From contig NC_054877.1 of the NCBI RefSeq assembly GCF_018320785.1, positions 36,354,151 through 36,418,150 of the forward strand: 64,000 nucleotides of DNA. The letters are read 5' to 3'. Shown in pieces: positions 22,121-64,000 of the stretch (its first letter is position 1; each line of letters begins with the position of its first letter). Both the position numbers and the translations under genes were made by a program. The notes beneath the pieces were generated by a model. The model was not told the DNA's origin, ran no database searches, and worked only from the letters and a program-made list of their open reading frames with translations. Source of the stretch: Cheilinus undulatus. Its lineage: Eukaryota; Chordata; Actinopteri; Labriformes; Labridae.

Positions 22121-25100
22121 ATGGGTGACATCCGTCAGTCGTTGCTGCCTCGTGATGTCCTGAGTGCAGCCAAGGAGCTGCTGTATCACCTGGACATCTA
22201 CATCTGTAACCTGGTGCAGTCAGGGAGGCAGCCTCCTCAGGTCGACTCAAAAACCCTAGAGCTGGTGGAGGAGTTTATCCTACATGCCCCGAAAGACAGA
22301 AACACCCCAGCCAGGGTAAGACATGACCTTGACGTGCTTTACCACTAATACCTTGATACATGCACAAATGTGTACAGCTAATACATTGTGTTTTTCTTTC
22401 AGAGGATGAGTGCTCTGCAGGAGCTCCAGCTGTTGGAGATCATGTGCAGCTGTTTCCAGGAACAGAGCCGGGACACCGTGCGGCAGCTCATGTTCTCAGC
22501 CCTGTTCAGTCTCCAAGGAAACCAGGCAGATGAAAGTCGGATGGCACTGTTAGGGAAGCTGGTCTCCATGGCGGTTGCTGTGGGCAGGGTGCCTATCTTG
22601 GAGTGTGCTGCTACCTGGTTACAGGTGAGGGTTTTTACACATACAACTCAAATAGCGTTCAAACTTGAGTTTTATTCTGCTCTGTACAATTCAGATCCTA
22701 GACCAAATCTGCATATTTTTTGTGTAAAATGTATTAGCTTTATTTAATTTGTGGAAACAGGTTTTAGTATTTTTTTTAAATGTACCTCTGAGTAGGGTGC
22801 TGGTGTAGCTCAGTGGGTTGAGCAGGCGCCCATAAGCATACACTAAAGTCCTCTATGCACTGGGATTGATTGGCACATGTTTGGTGTCTGTCTTCCTCCA
22901 TTATAGGCAAAATGCCTTTAAAATAAGATCTTGGCAAAAATCCAAGTCCTTAGGTATATCTATGTATTTTCAAACAAGATACAGGGTAAGATAATATCAT
23001 TTATATAGTTGATGTTGAGGCATTGAAAACAAGATGCCAGGCTTAATTCTCATTGAAAATATAGTTTAAAGTAAGAACAACTAACCATATTTGTTAATTT
23101 ACCTTAAGAACATTTACCGTATATAATGACTGAAAAAAAATAATACAGATACTTGTTTGATAACACAGCAACAAATAGGAAATAGACAAAAATAGAAGTC
23201 CTATGCACTCATACTTTTTTTTTATAATTTAGGAATTTTAATCATCAAAAATTGATTAAGAACTCCTGCACATTGACTGAATATCCTCAGTGCATCAGCA
23301 ATGTTTGTAAAAGTGAGTGGACTGAAGAGTGAGGGAAACCCCTTAAACTTTAGATTTGCCTTTCGGTGGTTCATAGTGTAGCTACCTGCACAGAGGAAGC
23401 AGAAAAACAAAACATGCAGATGCCTCAGGGATTTCCTTTTTGTGGCAAAAGGGGATGCAGCATTTTCCCTTGATGGTAGATAACTTTAAAGAAAAAGATA
23501 CTACAAGCATATAACTTGAATTTTGGAACAAATGTGTTTTAATCACTGGCTACAGCAAAGAACGTTATATGAGGCTTCTGTAACAGTTTACTTTGAGATG
23601 TAAATTGGTTATGTTTTTCTGCAGAGAACCCACAGAGTGTACTGCGTACGTCTGGCACAGGTGCTTGTAGACGACTACTGTAGTTTAGTGCCAGGCTCTG
23701 TGTCCACACTTCAAAACATCCACAGTGCCAGCCCACGCTTCTGCTGCCAGTTCATCACTGCAGTCACCACCCTCTATGACCTCACCTCAGGTACTTGGGG
23801 AAAACAAAAAAAGTAAAGTTGTATTAAAAAGTTAAATTTGAGAACAAGGTAAATATTATGTCATTATGTTAACTTGAGATGTTTGGTGTCATTTTAAACA
23901 TTATTTTATGTGTTTAGAGGAGCTCACTCCTCCTCTAGAACTTCTCCAGATGATTGTGTCATGGATCCAGGACGACCCTCGTCTGGTCCTCATCACCTTC
24001 CTGAACTCACCCCTCTCTGGCAGCCAGCCAATCAGCTCACTGGATGTCACACCATTAGGCGGGTTAGTGCGCTGGTGCGTCAAAGCACCGCTGGCCTACA
24101 GAAAGGAAAAAAAGCAGGCCTTAACCAATGGCACCGCTGAGAGTGAGACAGAAGTTGGGCCACTTTTCTCAGGCCTCCATCTGAGTGTCCTTCAGGTGAG
24201 CATTTACGTACTTATATACAACGAAGAATACCTAATAAATCCAGTTTTAACAGCAAAGATAATCTACCTATTTAACATTGTCTCCCACATTCAGGTCTTC
24301 ATGCTCTTGCCTAGTATACTAAATGAGAAGGGGCTGTTTGGTCGTCTGGCACTGCTCCAGGTTGAGTCCCTGGCTGCTCTGACTTCAGACCTCTCCAGGT
24401 TGTTGGACCAGGCTGACAAACATACTCATACATCATCTGCAGATGCACACTCGCTGTCCCAGCTGACCCTGGACCGGCTAGCACAGGCCCTGCAGGTGGC
24501 AATGGCAAATGGAGCTTTGCTCTGCTCGAGAGGTAAGATTGTTAAAAAAAGAACAACTAACAGTATTTCAGTGCAGAGGTAAGAAAAATGGATAGAAGAG
24601 GAGAGAAACATTTCTATTTAGGAAAACCTTAGCTGTGTTATTGAGTCTGGGATTTTGACTCTAATCACTTGTCATATGGTTTATCTGCTGATGCTACAAC
24701 AGTATTTGAGGTCTTTTCTCATGCTTCCTTACAGAGGACCTGCGAGCCATCTGTTCCCGCCTCCCACACAACAAGTAAGAACTGTTTACTATACACTAAC
24801 ATGGTCACTATTCCCCCTTTAACTTAATTACAGCTGGAAAACTATGACTACAACTTATAGAGTACAGCTTCAATATGCTCTTTATACTCTTGTAACAACT
24901 TATAAACATCTAGTGGGGCCATAATGTTTTGGATGGGGAGTATTGTGTTATGTGGCGCAATCCCAAAGTACCCATTTCAAGACAGACTTTGGGAACAGAG
25001 AGCAAAAATAAGTCTTGTTACTGAGTCACAGAGCAAAGACTAACTTCCAGCACTTTTTATTCATGTGAAAATTTTTAGTCATAATTTTAGTCTACAGAAT

Positions 25101-50904: not shown

Positions 50905-53900
50905 ATGGACCAGGCAAGGTCAACAATTTCCAAAATTGTGAGTATGTGTGCCCTTATAATGGCGCCTTAATCCTAAAATAACAAGCCTTGCCATAAGAAA
51001 TTATCCACTTAAGATTTAAGTCTGAGTATAACTCTACTTGAAGTGTAATGAATGATTTTCCTATTTTCATCTTTGGGAACAAATACTTATTACTGTGCAT
51101 TTCATCACCACCACACTGAAGGATTATGGAGAATTTGAGCAGGAAAATATTTTAAGTCGATGTTAAATATTATTTTAGCGCTGTGGGTTGATCTTAAGAT
51201 TTAGTCATGGTTGTTTAGTAATGAGACAAAAGCTGCACCACTTAGATACACTTGAAAAGACTAGTAACCATTACAATTACCACAGTTATTGGAAAAGGCT
51301 TCGCTTTTGTGTTTTTTACTTATTTGGTAGCAGTGTATTTCTGACCAGTCAGTAAACAGATGTGGAACATCTTGATCAAATTCTTGTAATAGTGCTCTGT
51401 TAGTTTTGAATGCGGACTTTTAAAGCTGTTTCAATTGAATCCTGTTATGTCGAAGACTTAAATTGTATATAAGTGCAGGCTTTATAGCTCACCAAGCTAT
51501 TTAAAAACCTCTGATTATTACCACATAGAGATATGCAGCCATAACTAGGAATGCATATGAAGAAGAAACGACGTACTGTGTCTGTCTGGTCTTTACGATT
51601 TAACTGCCTTTACAGTTTAATGGAGAGCCCCACTCCTACACCCGCTTCAACTTGACACGAAACATGGAAGGTGATAACAGCCAGGTGGAGATGAAGCTGT
51701 CGTCCGACATGGATGAAGACGTCGGGGGAAATGGCGTTGGAGAACACCTTAACCACAACTCAAACCGCAGACCTTACGTGGCTAATAAGTTTGGGCGCAC
51801 CCCCAAGAACCTCTGCTTCATGGCAGCCACCGTCCTTCTCATCTTCATCATAGGTAAGAGGCAGGTGTTGGTAAACAATCAACAGAACAGAGTATTCATC
51901 AGTAAAAATTATTTGTGTAGTTCCTCAAGGATCAATACTGGGGTCACTATTTTTTAAATATCTGATGTGTTTTTTCACACATGCAGACAGTGAAAATTGT
52001 GACATATTCTTTGCTGATAATTTTTTATTTGACTTTACATCTACTTCCAGGGTACTTGATTGGCTTCTTAGTTCATCGAAAGAAGGATGCATCCCCTGTC
52101 TGTGCAACCTCTGCTCTGCCTTTAGAAAGAGAATTCATTCCCCATGAGACTGGTGCTGCCCCGCTCATGGACTGGGGCATTGTCAAAAAGCTCCTCAAAC
52201 AGAAAGTGTCTGCAGAAAAATTTGGGCCTGTTTTGAGGTAAATGTTAAGCTCTCAAACTAGTGGTGGTAATTGAATGAAGCTGAAACGAATCTTACTTTT
52301 TTATGACCAAGTATCTGCCTTCACCAGCACACATTTAAAAATAAGGAAGAACAGGTTGTTCTCATTTACATGCTCTTTCTGTCTATTCTTTTTAACATTA
52401 TTTTTTATGTTAAAGTCAACATAAAATCCTAAAATATGTATCAGTCTAATCCCTAAATTCCACTAGATGTGTGTTCAAGTTTCTGCTCCATCATGGCAAT
52501 GGAGCTGACAGGTTTCAGTTTTAGTCTAAGAGAGTCTCTGCTCCATCACGGCTCCGGCAGCCTGGAGCCTTCTGCAGCAGATACTCAGGACTTCTACTTC
52601 TGCAGGATGCCAGACCATTATGCATCCATTTAGCACAGAGAAGATCAAGCAAGGCAGGAAGTTTCACCAAAATCGGTTTAGTTTCAGAGTAAAATACTCC
52701 ATGTTGATGTCAGATAAATGCCAGATTGTATTCTACTTTACATCATCAACAAAACGTTACAATGGGATCTAGCCGAGCAAGGATTCAACAGGTCAGAGGG
52801 ACAAGAAGGGTAGGTAAAGTTTATTGAAATTGTACTTCTCAAACAGATTATAGTAAACTGATTAAGTTTTATATATGAAAAGGTTACTTACCTATGGTAG
52901 AAGCACAAAAATCCAAATGAAGGACAGAAAAGAGACAAATCCAAGCAAGTTTACCCTTCATCAACTCCTGCAGTTTAAAACACTAGCTTCACATGTGGGT
53001 GTTATGTTTGTATAGCTCTTCAGTAGTATGTTAATGCACGGCCAGGCAGGATTCTGTAAGATTACATATTTTGGCTGCACACGGTGGGTGTTAATAGATG
53101 TCGTCAACTCTCTACTTTAGACTCTTTAAAGTGCTTTTTTCCCCTGCCTGAGAATAAAGATCAATGACCTGTTTCCTGCACCTGTTTTGTCACTTATCAC
53201 AACACAGCATGCTAGTGTCAAACTCAGTAAAGGACAACATAACAGCTTCAGAAATATGTAGCTGAAATATCTCGGTCGCCCCCTTGTGGCTGGCTGCATT
53301 ATAGGTGATGCAGATGAATCACATTGGTGAAGGCAATAAACTAAACACTGTATGTTTTGGAAGAAAATAAAGATATACATACCAAAATTTATATATAGTT
53401 TTCAAATAATGAAATTTGGCCCTCACAGCATCAGTCAATCAAAAAGCTGTCGCTTGTACAAATGTAGTTGACAGCCCCTGTGATATCATACAATATAAGA
53501 TACAGTACGATGTAATGCAGTACAATACAATGATATCAAAAGTGTCATGAAACAGTGTTTCCCCAGCAATTGCAAAACATTTATATAATGATACATCAAG
53601 ATATCTGAATAAATAAAGAGTGCAAAATGTCACTGCAAAGGTAAGGTGCAAGGTTTATGTGGTCATTCATCACAAACTAGGGCCAGTTTCACTTCTTTTA
53701 AAGTGTTCATTACTTCTTTTCACCTAGGTCGGTCTTTATTCACCTAATTTCTTCTTTAATCCTGCCACCAACTTCTTCTTTAGTGATTAAAGTGTAGATG
53801 GAGTAAGCCGCCAGTCTTATCAAACTTTAAAAATACATCTATGTATTTGTAATTCCTTTTTTCTTTCTTTACTCCAGTCAGTTTTCTAGGGATGAACACC

Positions 53901-56900
53901 GTGCTGGTTCACCAGGAGATGAAGCTTTGGGAAACAAGGTGCTTGACAAGTTTAAAGAGTATGGCATGAAAACTTGGACCGATGAGCACTTTGTGAAGGT
54001 TCAGGACCCCCCAGCTTCTGGATTCAATGTATTTGTTTTCAAGAACGGGACAGCTCAGAGGCTGGAAGGATTCTTATCCTACAGCAAAACTGGAAAAGCA
54101 ACAGTGAGTGACCTGCAGGCCTAACTTAGTGCTGCAAATTTAAAGTACTGAATGGAAATGGATGTAGACATTTTTGTGCATTATTTTTTTTGCCAAGGGG
54201 TCCGTCTTGTACGCGCATTACGGGCAGGAAAGTGACTTCGGGATCCTGCACGACAGAGGCATCAACACGACTGGAAGAGTCATGCTGATCAGGGCTGGAA
54301 AGATTAGCTATGCTGAGAAGGTGGTAGTTTTTTTTTTTTATCAGAAATTAAATGTAATTGTAAATAATAATCAACTATCTTTTTACCTACAGTGCTTAAC
54401 AAAATTCTTAGACCACCTGTCATATTTGTCTCAGAGACCATCCAGCATCATGGAGTGCTTTAATGCAGACTCTTTTATTTTCAGTGAGCTCTCCATGTTT
54501 TACCATTTTGAACAGGAATGAGGAATTTCAAACTGAATTCACCTTTTTATACCCAAATTTGAGCCGGCTCACTGGGCTTCTCTGAGAAGTCAGAAAGTAA
54601 TCAAGCATAACTTTCAACCACTAAAACTAATTTTTCTGTTCAGGAATGCAAGTAAATAACTATAATTTGACATATTAATCAAGAAATAATAATGTGCTTC
54701 ACTATTTTTTCAGTTTTTTTGTAAATCGGTAAATTTGAAAATTCATTGATAACAATAATAATTATATTTTAGCATTAAAAATATCATTTCTGTTAAAGAG
54801 CTTCAACATATTAGTGTATTAACCATTGCAGAAACATTAAAAATGATTTTGGTAATTACCAATGCTGTTAATTTAGGGCAACTGTGGCATAAACCTTACT
54901 TTAGTTGGTGGTCTAATAAATTCGTTAAGCACTGTACCTTGTAACTTATTTTTTTCTATCTTGTTTTTTGTTTACTGTCAGTGATTAAAGAAACTAAACC
55001 ATCATGCTTTACTATTATTTATTTGTGTTTTTAGGTTGCCAATGCTGCCAGCATGAAAGCTGCTGCTGTGTTAATCTACCCAGACTCCACAAGTTACTCC
55101 ACTCCTCTGTTTGGACATGTGAGTACAGGCAGATAAGAAGTAGAAGGGCCGGTGTCGCTTGTGGCTTTTTTTTTTTTTCCCCACTGATGATGCTCCCACC
55201 CTAAAGGCCCCACCTGCTCTTACTATTGCTAACTCATGAATGTTGGGTCTGACTACTTATGCTCTGTCTTAAATTTGTTTTTGTCTAAAGTATAAGCTTT
55301 TTTCAGGGAAATTCACTTTTGAGAAGATGAAACTAATTTTCTCCTTTAACATCAATGTAGACAAAGCTGACCTCAAATTCAACTAACTAGAGCCCTGTGC
55401 AGGATGCTTCCTTTTTTTTTTTTTAACTAAGACTGGTTTAACTAGCTGGTTAAAGGTGACCTTTGGCAACAGTAACCTTAACCAAGCATTTCTGGTAGCT
55501 GCCATCAGACCAGAACAACGTTCAGGAGGAATTTTAGACCAGTCATCCCAACAGACCTGCTTCAGCTCATCCATATTCGTAGGTTGTCTGGTGGAAACAG
55601 CTCCCTTGAGGTCATCCCACAGCATCTCTGCTGTAATAGAAACTTTAGTGATGCTCTTGTTTGTGTTTGTCATGTTTCCTCTCACTGTTTCTCTTTTACT
55701 TGGCATCAACAAAACTGATATTTGTGGCATATTACATATTTTATAATATCCAATAACAATTAAAAAACTTAAATTTAAATTAGCCAGATTACATCATGAC
55801 TGGGTTTGTCAAAATATTACTTAATGTACCTTTAATATATTTTGATTCATGTTCCATCTGTGAACTTGAAGAAGGCAGGGTCTGTGGCCTGTGATCAATT
55901 TTCAAAGAGACTCAATCAAAAGGCAACAAAGTTGCTAATCTTACTTCCTTTTCCCTTCGTGTCCTACAGGTCCACATGGGCTCAGGAGATCCCTATACCC
56001 CAGGCTTCCCCTCCTTCAACCACACCCAGTTTCCACCAGTCCAGTCTTCAGGCCTTCCACAAATCTTGGCACAGACCATCTCCAAGTCTCAGGCTACAAA
56101 TATTTTAGAGTAAGCCTCTAAAAGACACTTAAAAAGAGAACTGATTAGAGATAGCAGGGGGCCTCATTTAGACCAGCTGTTTGTTTGGCATCATAGTTTA
56201 CTCTCTGCATCCACAGTGAACTGGGCGGTCAGGCTATGCCTGAGGGATGGGGGATGATGAACAAACTGGGAGGAGATAGCGACATTATTACCGTGGAGGT
56301 CAACAATGTTCTTACAGAGAAGAGGATAAACAACATCTTTGGGGTCATCAAAGGCTTTGTGGATTCAGGTACAACCAGGTTTTTATTTGATGTAGACAAA
56401 ATCTATCCATGAATTTCTACTCATCATTTTTTTCTGCCTTAAATTTTAGACCGCTATGTGGTTATTGGTGCCCAGAGGGATGCATGGGGTCCAGGTTTCG
56501 CTGCATCTACTGTTGGCACCAGCATCCTTGTTGAGCTGGCGCGATCAATCTCAGACATGGTTGAGAGCGGTAAGAGTGGCCTCAGCGGCTTTTTTATTTA
56601 GTTTCTTAGACAAAAATAGTGCTGAATTGTATAAAAAAGACGTTCCCTTCATGTTAGATCTTCTTTACGTTACCACACTGAAAAAAACTCAGATCTAAGC
56701 AACAAGATTTGTCTAATCATGGTAAAGAATGTCACATTATGTTTACTTTATGCAACATTTACAACATAAAAAGAGCAAAATAAGGCCTGAATTGCTTTTG
56801 ATAATTAAAATGATTAATTATTAATATTAGGGCTGGGCATTGTTAAGAACATCACGATTCAATTCGATTTTGATTCTTTAGGTTGCGATTCGATTCGATT

Positions 56901-59900
56901 TCGATTCGATATTGATTTAAGTGCTTCAATGTCAATTCAGTAAGAAGTAGAAATACACAAATAACCTGTTGACAATTTTTTAATAATTATTTTCATGCCC
57001 ATGTGAACATATTTGGTACGTCACCTCACATTTTTGAGCAATAAAACATCTGAAAATAAACATTTGCAAAATAATAACTTAGTTGTGCAGATGGAGTACA
57101 AAAGTAAAAAACATGACAGTTCTGTATAAACACTGAAAAAGTAAAGTGCATGTAAACTTAAAGACTATTTCTGTCCTCTTGGAAATTGTGATAAACCTCA
57201 CATGACATGGTTATGGTTGGTTGTTGTTGTTTGGTCGAGCGCGGCCTTCGTCCATACAATGCGTATCACACGCACAGCGACCCCCACTGGCCAGGAGGTG
57301 AATCGATTCTGAGGATTTGCTGAATCGATATTGAATTGGGGGAGGAAATATCGTGATGCATCGATTAAGCGATATTTTTACCCACCCCTAATTAATATAC
57401 TTTACAGTGTAATATTAGGCTGTACATTTGTCCGTCGTGTTCAGCAGCTTTGCAGGGTGCAGAAAGTCATCTAACCCAATTTATGTTTTAGGTTTGCATA
57501 CATATAAATAAATCCAACTTACACCAGAGAGTTATCTATAATTTTTTTGATCTTTAAGTTAGCTTTATGAATTAGGAACCGCACAAACCATGTCATATTT
57601 GCAGAAAATCTGGTAATAATACTTTAACTTGTTAGTCAACATGATTTTTTTGGCTTTTTGTGATGTCTTTGCTGAATTTGCCAACCTTTTTTCCTTCAAA
57701 AATGTACATAGCTGATGGCAATTGGGGGTGGGGGATCAAATTCATTTTCTTTATTTATCTTGAAATAAGGTGTACTGTTAATCTCGTCATTTAATTGAAG
57801 CTTATAGTAAACGAGGAGGAGATATTCTTGATTACAAATTGGACAATCCACTAGCAAAGATTTGAGTATATGGGCAGCTGAAGAAATGTGATAGGAAAGG
57901 AATGTTGAATAAGTTTTTTTATTGAGCCAAGGTCCTGTTTGTTTAAACTAATCAGACTTTGTGTTCTCCTCACAGATGGATTCAAACCAAGAAGAAGTAT
58001 TGTGTTTGCAAGCTGGAGTGGTGGAGAATATGGGAACATTGGTGCCACCGAGTGGTTGGAGGTGAGAGCTGCAATTAATTTTATACGACATGCTTTCTGA
58101 ACGGCATTTTTATTTATTGTTTTGTTTTTGCTAAAGTGGTGTTTATCTGTGCATGAACTCTTCTTTGATGCTGTTTGTATTTTGGTTGATCCAGGGTTAT
58201 CTCTCATCTCTGAGCAGCAAAGCCTTCGCCTACATCAACCTGGATGCTGTGGTAACAGGTGTGTAGTTTATCATGCTTTTAACCACCAAACCCTGAGTTA
58301 CTGTGTGATAATTAAAGTAAATTAAAACAGCTGGATGTGTCTTTTTTTGCAGGTCAAGCTGGATTCAAAGTAGCAGCGAGTCCTTTGATGCACAATCTGG
58401 TCCTGAGTGCTATGAAGGAGGTGAGTCAATGCTGGAGAAATGTCAGTGAATTATCTGTTCTTTTTCTGTAATGTTCAGAGGTGCAGTAAATTTGACCTTT
58501 TATACATATCATAGATTTTTTTATATAGTGCTTTTATTTTTGTTGTGTTTTTTTCAGATGGGTTGCAAAACAAGAAATTCAAATTCTGATATGATTCACT
58601 GAAAAATCAAGTAATATTGATTCCCTGTTTCCATACCATGTAGACAAAATAAAAGCCCCAGACAACAGTCACTGGGTAATTTGTTACTTTTGATCACAAA
58701 AAAAAAAATGCAAAGCAAACTCCAGCACATGGTCTAAATTCTACAAATAAGTCTGCAGTGGTTTGTTACTGAACATTTTCAGCAATTTTGGGCAATTAAA
58801 AAGTAGTGTTAGGCTTTGTTGAAATAAAACCAAAAGTCTGTAGTTTTTTTACAACTTTATCTGGATTCTGTTGATCATTGAAATTTTTATGTTTTTCATA
58901 TCAAACACGTTGTTGAAAAACATGAAAGAATGGTAAAGTTTATTGATTTTATGATCTTGTCCTGCCAGATGAGCCATCCAGTTTAATTCTGTCACCCACT
59001 AAAGTAGCGGTTTGGTCGTTATGTGGAGTTAATATGAAATAAACTTAAAACAACCTTCTTCTCCTCAGGTGAACTTCACCAACGCGGGAACTATCTTTTC
59101 TAATTTTGGAAAAGGCAACTGGGAAACAGATGTGTAAGTTTGACTAGACCATTAGTCTGGTCACATCCTCACTCACCTTACTACCTGCAGTAAAAGCCTG
59201 ATCACACAAAAGCTGAGCTTTTTTCTAGCAAATTTTGTGTCGCCGATCCCGATCTGATACTCATATTTGCCTGGATTAGAGTTTTAATGGTTTTTGTGTA
59301 CAGAATGAATTTATTAAACAGAATAATTACTAGATGTCTCAAGCATATTCCATTTAACGTAGTACAGCTAACAGTGTCTAAAACACTCAAAATCAAGTTT
59401 CTACTCAGGTGGTGTAATAGCTGTTTCACTTTAAATTAGTCAAAAAATAAAGTTGCATATTCGCCTAGTGCAGTGTTTGAATTAAATTGGACAAGAATCA
59501 AAAATCCACTTTAACAGCTGAGCAGTCAAAAGCCAGACATGAATGAAACAGTGAATAAAAATAACCTCAGCTCAACTTAAAAGTGGTGTAAACAGTTTAA
59601 GTAGTCACAATAACTAATACATTCAATAAGTGAATTTGAAATATTAGAATCCCATGTAAAAATGGTTCAATTAGCTTGACTTCAGTAGTCACAACAGAAA
59701 CTAAACTCAAAAAATTACTTCAGAAAACCCCAAATCCACTTTAAGGTGGTGTCAACAGTTTGACTTGAATAGGTACAAGATCAAAAACAAATGAATAATA
59801 CAGATTCAAAACAAAAATCCCTGTTAAAATGTAGCAGCTTAGTCTGAGATATGAACCCTATATGAACACTAACATTGCAGTAACACCTGAGGATCAAATA

Positions 59901-62900
59901 CATGGTGCTCTTATTATCACAGTGACATTTCTAAAGTGCAGCTGGAGCAGCTACAGAACTTTTTACTCTTCACTCTTATTTCTTTACCCACCTTGGGTAA
60001 AGAAGGTATTTGTCTCTCTTAAAGTCCAGAGTTTGTTGCTTCAGTGTAGCAGCGGTCTTGTTACAGATGCTTCAAGTGGCTAATGAACTGTTTTCATTCT
60101 CAAGCTTGAAGTATTTCCATAACATTTTAGCCACAGGATTGCTAATGTTGCTGCTGCTGCTCTGTTGCCTTACTTTAGTCATATCCCATGCCGTTTATGA
60201 ATCAGTCCTCAGTTGAACCGGAAGTAGTTTCTGATCCACCATCTTAAGGCCTGTTCCAAAGACCCTTAGCTGGACCGAAGACTGATGACTAAGATTTGAA
60301 GACCGATGAGCAGAGACACATGAGAGTAGGCTCTCTCAGACTCTTTTTACTCAAAAACACGCCCCCTTATTGGATATCATTCTCTAATTGGATGCTGCTT
60401 CGCAGTGGACATCAGTGCAACTTCACAGCACCAGCAGAGATAAATAATAGAGGAGAAATGGAGTTTATAAAAGATGATAAACTGACAAAACTAAATGTAA
60501 ATAGAACAGAGCACCAGCAGTTTTAAAAGACTCAATAACTCATGGGCTGGGATTTAAAGAGTGTTTGAAATAAGCATTTATAGTGAAATATTGAGAATAC
60601 ATTTAATAAAATAAATATTTAAGAGTGAATCAGTATGGAGTTCAATGTTTGATTTGTTTTCTGATTCACCTTCAAACATAAAACAAGCTAAAATTCATAA
60701 AATCAGAAGATTCAGGTTTAAATCTTTCCTTTTCTAGTTGGTTATTTATGTTTATTAGTTCATGAAGAGAATTAAAGTCTAACAAAGCAGCAGTCTGTCT
60801 GTCAGTAAGAAACACATTTTAAATCCATCCCGGGGTCAATAAAGTTTCGATCAGTACATTGTAAATAAATATTTATCTGTATTACATGAAACCAAAACTA
60901 AAGCTAAATCCTTCCTGTTTAATTTCCAGGCTTCAATCTTTGATGATGAACGATGCTGCGTATCCATTTGTCGCCTTTTCTGGCATTCCCTCGCTTTCAT
61001 TCAGGTTCAAGTCGGACACAGAAGTAAGTCGTCTGCTCTTGATATTCACTGTACCAAAGTTTTTCATTCTGGATGCATATTGACGTTCCGGTTTTTCCTC
61101 TCAGGAATACCCGTTCTTCGGCACAGCACTGGACACCCAGGGGAATCTGAACAGGGCCACCAGAAGTTTGGTTCCTCAGCTGACTGAAGCGGCGGCCAAG
61201 TTTGCCGGTCACATAGTGTTGAGGCTTGTGCACGATCACCTGCTGCGCTTTGACGTGAAGAAGTACGACAAGATCATACGCGCTCAAGTGGTTAAGATCA
61301 ATGCAAAAGTCATGAAATTGCGAAGGGTGAGAATACTTATGTTTTTCTGCTGACTTTTTTTGACCTTTCTCGATAGTCGAATTGGCTGTGAAGACTTTGG
61401 TCTGAATAGAGAAGAAGATGGAAGCTGTACCCTTTTTGTAACCTCTTTTTAAGTTTAAAAAGGCCAATTTAATCATCAGTGCCTTTTAATGACGTTTTAT
61501 GCACATTTTCCTCTAGTTGTTTGATTAAGAACCCAACCTGGCTTAGGAAATGATCTATTTGACTTGTTATCCATAAACACTAAACTACTGCTGTGATTGT
61601 GTTTCCAGCTGCAGCCCCAGAAGCTGCCCAAGGCCCTGACGGTGCAGTGGCTGATTTCAGCCCAAGGCTCCTACAGCCGTGCCTCTGACAGCCTGATGAC
61701 AGACATCCAGAAAAGCAACCTGGACGACATCGAGTTGTGCCGAATCATTAATGATCGTATCATGGCTGTAAGACTTCTCTTCTACAATATTTATCTTTTT
61801 AATAATCCAAAAATGAAATAATTGTTGCACACAGCTTTACAAAGGAAAAACCCATTGTTTTATTGAATTGTAGTTGTACAGTATGAATTGCTAGTTAAAC
61901 TGTTGATTATTTTTAAGAAACTCTGACCTAGGTGCCAATGTCAGTCAAAGTGTAAGCTACTGTATATTTGGCATTTTTAGCACTTTTTTTTACCACCTGA
62001 AAACCTGAGTTTGGTACACTGCAAAGAACTCAGATCAAAGCAGGCGTACAGCCATCATAAAACAGAAACATTTAAGAAATCCTTCAAAAAACAGTTTAAA
62101 ACGAAAAATGTTTTGTTATATATTTGGCAAACTGAAACAACTAAATACTTGTCACACATAATAACTAGTAAAGAGTCATGTTTTATCTGGCCTCATTTGG
62201 CCTCGATAACAGCATGTATTTTTGATGGCATTGTTTTTTATGAACTTTTCCACAGTCTCTTTTTTTATTGAGTCCTTAATAGTCTCTAGCTCCTCCCACA
62301 GACTTGCTTTAGATTAAACTTGTGCATGATCAATCTTTCAATCCACTAAATCCTTAATTTGTTCAATAAGATTCAAATCTGCACTTTGGCTTGGCCAGTC
62401 CACTATCCAGATTTCTTTTTCTTGGTCATATAGTCTCTGCTGTCACAGCTTCAAGTCTGCTGGGGGTCATTGTCTTGGTATATGAACCCATGACCAATCA
62501 GATTCAGTCTAGAAGGGATTCCATGATGCACTAAGATGTTGTGGTAGACGTTCTTGTTCAAGATACCGTCAATTTTGACTCATTTGCCCACGCTGTTTCC
62601 ACACATGGAACCCCATTCCATAATGGAATCTCCGCTGTGTTCCACTGTGGGTGCATCTGGCATCAAAACGTTTTCCAGCTTTTCTGCAGACAGCACAACA
62701 ATTCTGACTGAAGGGTGCAAACTTGGACTCGTCCATCTAGAGTACCTTCTTCCAGTCATTAGCAGTCCAGTGTTTGTGCTCCCTGGCAAATCTGAGGGTT
62801 TCTGGATGTTTGCAAGCCTCAGTAATGGCTTCTTAGCAGCTATTCTTCCCTTTAAGCCTTGTTCCATCAGTTGTCTGCTTATAGTCATTCTGGAGACTTT

Positions 62901-64000
62901 CTCAGACTCTGCTTAAAGATCAGCAATAGTCTTCCTTCTCTCTCTAGTACTTAAAATCTTGAGGTGCCTGACATCTGCTTTAGTTAACTTTCGTTTCCTG
63001 CCTCGTCCTTGATGCATGTTGTTAGTACTGGTCTCAGGTATTGACTCCAAAGCATACTTGACCACACTGTAAGAGTTCTTTGTCTTTCCCTATTTGTCTC
63101 AGAGACCGTCCAGGATCATGAAGTGCTTTAATTTGGACTCTTTCATTTTTAGTAGCTCTACACATTTTACTGTTTTGAACAGGAATGAGAATTTCACCTT
63201 TTTATACCCAAATTTAAGCCGGCTCACTGGGCTTCTCTGAGAAGTCCAAAATTAATCAAGCTTAACATTCAACCACTAAAACTACTTTTTCTGTTCAGGT
63301 GAATAACTGTCCCTCGTGTAGGGGCATATTTATTGTGCAGTAACTTAAAAAATATTCCCTTTACATTGAGTGATTATGAGAGTTGTTGCTATTAAAAAAA
63401 GATGCGTTGTCTCCTCTGGTTGCAGCGGTGTGAACTGGTTGGCTTTTAGTCCCAGAGTTGCCAGTCGCAAGTAGCTGCAAGTGTCAACCCATCTCATCGT
63501 GAATCTTTGGTCTGACCTGGGCTAGAGAAACGTTGATTTTGAAACAACATAGAAATGTTTTCACTGACACACAAGGTCACACTTTGAGCTCAGATTTAAA
63601 ATGTTAAGCTGAGCTGATGATCATTCCTCTTTCTGATGACTAGAGATGATTAAAGTTAATCTCAATCACCTCAATCAGCTGTTATTGTCAAAACAGTACA
63701 AATATCCAATGACCTGATGAGGCTGTGAAGTTAATCCTCCCACCCATCATCACTCCTTCTCCTCTTGTTTCTGCAGGTTGAGAGGAACTTACTGTCCCCG
63801 TATCTGTCTCCCAGTGAAAGTCCTTTCCGTCACATCCTGCTGGGATCGGGCCCTCACACTCTCAGGGGTCTGTCCAACCACCTTGAAGCCATCAGAGACA
63901 ACCCCAACATGGACGCCGACGAGTTCCGCAACCAGTTTGCCCTTGCTACCTGGACCCTCCAAGGTTGTGCTAACTCACTCGCAGGAGACATCTGGGCCTT
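50905..64000 (+). CDS. tfrc: transferrin receptor 1 (C-terminus cut by window edge)
   Basis: A type II membrane glycoprotein that takes up iron-loaded transferrin by endocytosis. Coding exons: 50905-50937, 51616-51853, 52051-52237, 53878-54103, 54198-54320, 55035-55118, 55970-56109, 56217-56368, 56450-56569, 57976-58061, 58195-58258, 58353-58420, 59069-59133, 60930-61023, 61105-61326, 61609-61767 and 63777-64000. Phases agree throughout; about 761 residues are visible against 760 in human. The start [11 protein letters not shown] matches the family. The cytoplasmic endocytosis signal YTRF is at 19-22 and the membrane helix at about 77-98. A single stalk cysteine is at 108. Protease-like, apical and helical domains follow, with [57 protein letters not shown] and FRNQ-type blocks. 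N-glycosylation sequons occur at 251, 314 and 509. The RGD of the mammalian receptor is replaced by QGS at 653-655. Teleosts have duplicate receptors; which copy this is cannot be decided here. Confidence 0.96.
54390..54934. mobile_element. non-autonomous Tc1-like element in transferrin receptor intron 6
   Basis: The ends are cagtgcttaacaaaattctt and the inverse of aataaattcgttaagcactg, flanked by TA at 54388-54389 and 54935-54936. The element is 545 bases with no transposase. Its left third (about 54423-54650) matches about 63090-63300 in intron 17 (words tttgtctcagagaccatcca and gagccggctcactgggcttc). It therefore looks like an internal-deletion derivative of that family. Confidence 0.88.
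55390..55745 (-). mobile_element. DNA transposon fragment, probably Tc1-like
   Basis: Antisense frame 55383-55730 encodes a peptide with a [20 protein letters not shown] segment followed by [13 protein letters not shown], the usual layout of the C-terminal part of Tc1-type transposases (order of blocks reminiscent of LKxA.W..IPxE.C..L). Flanks were not resolved. It lies in transferrin receptor intron 7, about 220 bases upstream of the next exon. Confidence 0.6.
56828..57390. mobile_element. hAT miniature transposon with perfect 8-base target duplication
   Basis: Left end tagggctgggcattgtta, right end tttttacccacccctа-type (57374-57390), imperfect inverses. Identical flanks attaatat at 56820-56827 and 57391-57398. 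The subterminal regions are packed with attcgat/atcgatt words (left 56870-56915, right 57301-57370), which may be transposase binding sites. 563 bases, no frame. Transferrin receptor intron 10. Confidence 0.9.
62130..63300 (-). mobile_element. Tc1-like transposon, degraded, in transferrin receptor intron 17
   Basis: The minus-strand frame 62580-62888 encodes [20 protein letters not shown] followed by LLRLANIQK, then a decayed [11 protein letters not shown] segment and [12 protein letters not shown], the canonical order of Tc1 transposase. Additional antisense similarity extends from about 62170 to 63060. Frameshifts and stops make it inactive. The part near 63090-63300 matches the miniature element in intron 6. 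Left end is approximate. Confidence 0.8.

Follow-up and report, generated by a model that had tools for sequence, protein, structure and literature searches.

What does a transferrin receptor do when it lacks the RGD motif that the human receptor needs for transferrin binding? This question is raised by a 64,000-nucleotide stretch of the Cheilinus undulatus genome (contig NC_054877.1, positions 36,354,151 to 36,418,150; hereafter the window, meaning the whole stretch that was analysed), which includes a receptor gene of the transferrin receptor 1 (TfR1) type with QGS in the place of the human RGD at residues 646-648. A first-pass annotation had noted the change and suggested that this copy may interact in another way with a fish transferrin that has itself diverged, or be a paralogue with another ligand. 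The reading we favour, at a probability of roughly four in five, is that the gene encodes an intact and iron-regulated teleost TfR1 that would bind the serum transferrin of this fish at a remodelled site in the helical domain, with G647 and R651 as putative anchors. The exon in question is:

61609..61767, + strand: coding exon 16, encoding the transferrin-facing helix in which human WLYSARGDFFRAT is replaced (placed by translation, alignment and its AG/GT bounds).

This exon translates into 53 residues without a stop, is bounded by AG and GT and, used as a 53-residue query, aligns with WLYSARGDFFRAT of human TfR1 as its counterpart (E 0.0017). Numbered as in human TfR1, the alignment gives Y643I, R646Q, D648S, F649Y and F650S, with G647 and R651 kept, and helix 1 is separated from QWLI by seven additional residues. 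Each of the residue changes named in the annotation (643, 646, 648 and 650, with R651 kept) was correct, and the change in this exon is a confirmed, real observation.

The next question is whether the changed motif is peculiar to this gene, and for this we searched the genome (1.17 Gb in 46 contigs, with the window gene on contig C13). With the window protein as query, 42 exon matches were obtained, comprising the gene itself, two copies on C19 and weaker matches on C2, C5, C7 and C22. The C19 pair lies tail-to-tail (C19:39092928-39123567), with aligned DNA blocks that are 81-100% identical, and the two copies encode WLNQAHGSFQRAA and WLIQAYGSFQRAA at this position, in exons flanked by AG and GT. 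Their motifs are HGS and YGS, both keep G647 and R651, and they carry two and one matches, respectively, to the iron-responsive element (IRE) family IRE_II. GS in place of GD (x-G-S for R-G-D) is thus found in all three TfR1-type genes identified in this genome, and the changed motif therefore looks like the normal state in this fish, not a broken or odd copy. The single odd copy implied by the annotation does not survive this comparison, and the annotation's own counter-possibility, that QGS is the general teleost state, is supported for QGS or GS within this genome by the three copies found. Among the positions printed, human and the three fish genes agree at W641, L642, A645, G647, R651 and A652, and the fish genes have S648 in common.

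No RGD-bearing TfR exon appeared among the best candidates reported by searches with the window protein, human TfR1 and human TfR2, which leaves its absence unproven. The human TfR1 stretch gave eight matches, of which the window exon and that of C19 copy A span this position; this search was incomplete, as the matching exon of C19 copy B was not reported, and its weak matches on C9 (E 1.0) and C4 (E 7.4) were outside the comparison. The human TfR2 stretch gave seven matches, and the one spanning this position is the window exon. In the prokaryote and viral collections there were 0 relatives, and the stretches matching a pattern (8 and 15) encoded none. Additionally, a literature search on RGD in teleost transferrin receptors, covering titles and abstract openings, found nothing on the topic.

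As to the integrity of the gene, we modelled it with 17 coding exons starting at 50905, the last being cut by the window end at 64000. The 15 exons from 52051 on form one open frame of 670 residues within the window, with AG before each of them and GT after the 14 uncut ones, and the exon at 51616-51853 is in phase with those downstream. The modelled protein has a YxRF-type endocytosis motif (YTRF) and a single membrane helix near its N-terminus, as well as the Pfam domains PA, Peptidase_M28 and TFR_dimer, in agreement with the annotation, which had described YTRF, the membrane helix and the open frame as intact. The remaining exons are:

50905..50937, + strand: coding exon 1, with a GT donor after it, placed by position and phase alone, with no transcript.
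51616..51853, + strand: coding exon 2, cytoplasmic tail with the YTRF endocytosis motif and the start of the membrane helix.
52051..52237, + strand: coding exon 3, the remaining membrane helix, the stalk and the start of the protease-like domain (human contacts 122-125).
53878-54103, 54198-54320, 55035-55118 and 55970-56109, + strand: coding exons 4-7, protease-like and apical domains (PA domain by Pfam).
56217-56368, 56450-56569, 57976-58061 and 58195-58258, + strand: coding exons 8-11 which, with 12-15, run from the protease-like domain to the start of the helical domain (Peptidase_M28 by Pfam).
58353-58420, 59069-59133, 60930-61023 and 61105-61326, + strand: coding exons 12-15, the same span, into the start of the helical domain (Peptidase_M28 by Pfam).
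63777..64000, + strand: coding exon 17, cut at the window end and continuing in the adjoining DNA (L004) to DIWALDNEI, then a stop.

The identity of the family was approached from the protein and from the 3' untranslated region (3'UTR). Human TfR1 is the closest solved protein (E 2.5e-183), with NAALADase and GCPII types reaching E 6.5e-59 at best; no TfR2 was among the matched PDB molecules, so this match sets TfR1 apart from GCPII-type relatives, not from TfR2. Human TFRC carries IREs in its 3'UTR, and the 3'UTR of the window gene, in the adjoining DNA (L004 1958-2421), holds four IRE_II matches above the Rfam gathering score. These elements point to an iron-regulated TfR1, and TfR2 is described as having no 3'UTR IRE in PMC12045970. 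Within TfR1, the window gene is perhaps the orthologue of tfr1a, which is a guess from sequence identity. According to PMC3944790, the erythrocytes of zebrafish tfr1a mutants cannot use circulating iron and tfr1a is needed for iron loading, and PMC6929055 reports that grass carp TfR1 promotes the accumulation of labile iron.

How far the change reaches over the receptor surface can be read from the transferrin contacts listed in PMC9957567 (122-125, 662, 664, 619, 623, 629, 640, 643, 646, 650 and 651). Pairwise alignment to human TfR1 leaves 3/14 of them kept (W124, Q640 and R651), a four-way alignment 4/14, with R629 added, where gap placement decides; the changed contacts extend outside coding exon 16. 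On the ligand side, the fish has a gene for a serum-type transferrin near 19.86 Mb on C13, and its exon pieces have ovotransferrins, followed by serum transferrins, as best solved relatives. Another transferrin gene, at 13.17 Mb on C7, is melanotransferrin-like, and further transferrin genes on C3 and C18 were outside the comparison. The receptor-facing residues of human transferrin, a list of 19 in the same review, were checked against PDB; residue 369 was excluded, being printed as Glu and actually Val in the human protein (and Val in the fish too). Compared with human, 4/18 are kept in the fish (L72, H349, D356 and E367), where the loop at 142-145 is of another length and, by eye, all four of its residues were scored as not kept.

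These data, with 14/18 transferrin residues changed and GS in three genes, are in line with the suggestion that the receptor may bind its diverged ligand in a different way. The fish's serum transferrin would be bound in the helical domain, as is usual, with G647 and R651 probably acting as anchors within a remodelled surface in which Ser replaces Asp at 648 and the residues at 619, 643, 646 and 650 are not the same in every copy. The receptor face and the transferrin face would, on this model, have changed together. Fish transferrin can evolve fast, with a ratio of nonsynonymous to synonymous substitution rates (dN/dS) of 5.8 given for cod transferrin Tf1 in PMC3125230.

Several points weigh against this reading. 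The contact face has diverged, but not clearly beyond the general divergence of the protein (P 0.06 to 0.30): 3/14 contacts compare with 288/625 ectodomain positions conserved with human (P 0.056), the count of 4/14 in the same ectodomain comparison gives P 0.15, and within the helical domain 3/10 contacts compare with 63/143 other positions (P 0.30). Likewise, the transferrin count of 4/18 shows change and not excess change. GS as the general teleost state would rest on one genome. Loss of R646 could also weaken binding, by analogy with the human double mutant R646H/G647A, in which transferrin uptake is markedly lower (PMC4595017). Finally, the tfr1a label is weak, since over five shared stretches the identity to human is about the same for the window gene (107/167) and for C19 copy A (106/167), and only in the helical domain do the two differ (66/153 and 57/144).

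Of the rival explanations, the least improbable is that the surface facing the ligand is under positive selection, with a fast-changing transferrin as the driver and the C19 pair split by it; this is compatible with the favoured reading and goes beyond it. The C19 copies differ at 14/196 aligned C-terminal residues, including human 618, 619, 643, 646, 661, 663 and 667, and in their favour as selected copies they differ at 3/10 helical contacts (619, 643 and 646) against 10/134 other helical positions (P 0.048), while the window gene shares 1/10 contacts with C19 copy A against 67/134 other helical positions (P 0.014). Neither the same comparison with C19 copy B (P 0.20) nor those of the three fish genes with human (P 0.20, 0.30 and 0.39) were significant, and the two values below 0.05 come from six overlapping tests with uncorrected P values. 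The annotation had proposed a comparison with a second copy and a dN/dS test on the helical domain; two other copies were found, both with GS, and between them dN/dS was 0.53 for the helical exons and 0.40 for the other pieces counted (eight exon pieces in the count, the other exons left out), and amino-acid changes were not enriched in the helical exons (Fisher P 1.0). The C19 copies thus gave no sign of positive selection, and we regard this explanation as doubtful, the contact differences among paralogues being a lead. A further proposal, that teleost TfR1 might bind transferrin without RGD on a site anchored by G647 and R651, with the surrounding contacts re-sorted between paralogues and each copy tuned to a fast-changing transferrin, is in our view rather unlikely.

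A second rival, improbable in our view, is that this receptor no longer binds transferrin and has another ligand, for example ferritin through the apical domain. This would resemble human R646H/G647A: according to PMC4595017, which presents the human RGD as essential for binding transferrin, most of the transferrin uptake is lost in that mutant and H-ferritin uptake is retained. The 10 or 11 of 14 changed transferrin contacts speak for this rival. The H-ferritin contacts have changed too, however, with 1/14 of those listed in PMC6408514 kept in an alignment that is gapped nearby (at contact 197 the human sequence used has Q and the paper prints E). Further, the IREs are kept, and the fish would then have no RGD-type TfR1 among the three genes found. 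The paralogue with another ligand suggested by the annotation is accordingly unsupported, with TfR1-type IREs present and no RGD-bearing TfR exon reported. A sequencing, assembly or annotation error (of which the annotation had raised the first two), or a dying gene, is hardly credible, as nothing was found in its favour, splice sites are clean and the frame is open, GS recurs in two other genes, and no RGD-bearing alternative exon was seen on the + strand in 61327-63776.

Some further observations concern the locus and its relatives. In the stalk (52051-52237), human Cys 89 and 98 align to R and S and one cysteine remains nearby; given this R and S, the dimer disulfides may differ from human. 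The last intron of the receptor gene contains a Tc3/Tc1-type transposase remnant (PF01498) on the - strand at 62583-62912, and exons of INTS15 (Integrator subunit 15) lie upstream of the gene on the + strand at 22382-24579. As regards the weaker matches, PF04253 was found on C2 and C5; on C5 there is an exon that is presumably GCPII-like, while the C2 stretch has no match to the window protein and two weak matches are listed further along C2. The match at C7:42894873 we take to be a NAALADL2 exon. On C22 (36758277-36758516) a lone exon resembles the last exon of TfR2 and is preceded by a long array of 68-base tandem repeats; no further TfR2 exon was among the matches reported, and this exon may be a relic or part of a gene split by the repeat.

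Should this indeed be a normal iron-regulated receptor family without RGD, the requirement for the motif would hold for the mammalian pair of receptor and transferrin, and not for TfR1 as such. With no RGD in 3/3 TfR1-type genes found here, RGD defines the human binding site rather than the gene family. The comparison also names two residues, G647 and R651, that do not vary between human and the three fish copies, and it suggests that human transferrin should be used with care as a probe in this species.

Compared with human TfR1 (TFRC; PDB chains 7zqs_B, 1cx8_A and 3s9l_A), the window gene agrees in the order of its domains, in YTRF, the membrane helix, G647 and R651 and in its 3'UTR IREs, with 334/748 aligned residues identical. 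It differs in QGS for RGD, in contacts 619, 643 and 650, in those with the N-lobe (122, 123, 125, 662 and 664), in the seven more residues before QWLI and in the H-ferritin contacts, of which 1/14 are kept. The C19 pair shares W641, L642, A645, G647, S648, R651, A652 and 3'UTR IREs with the window gene and differs from it in having N or I at 643, H or Y at 646 and Q at 650. Zebrafish Tfr1a and Tfr1b, compared here as described in PMC3944790, likewise represent two TfR1 types in one fish, with identities to human printed as 44 and 39%, in our reading for Tfr1a and Tfr1b in that order, next to the 334/748 of the window gene; in Cheilinus undulatus, unlike in zebrafish, the second TfR1 type is doubled.
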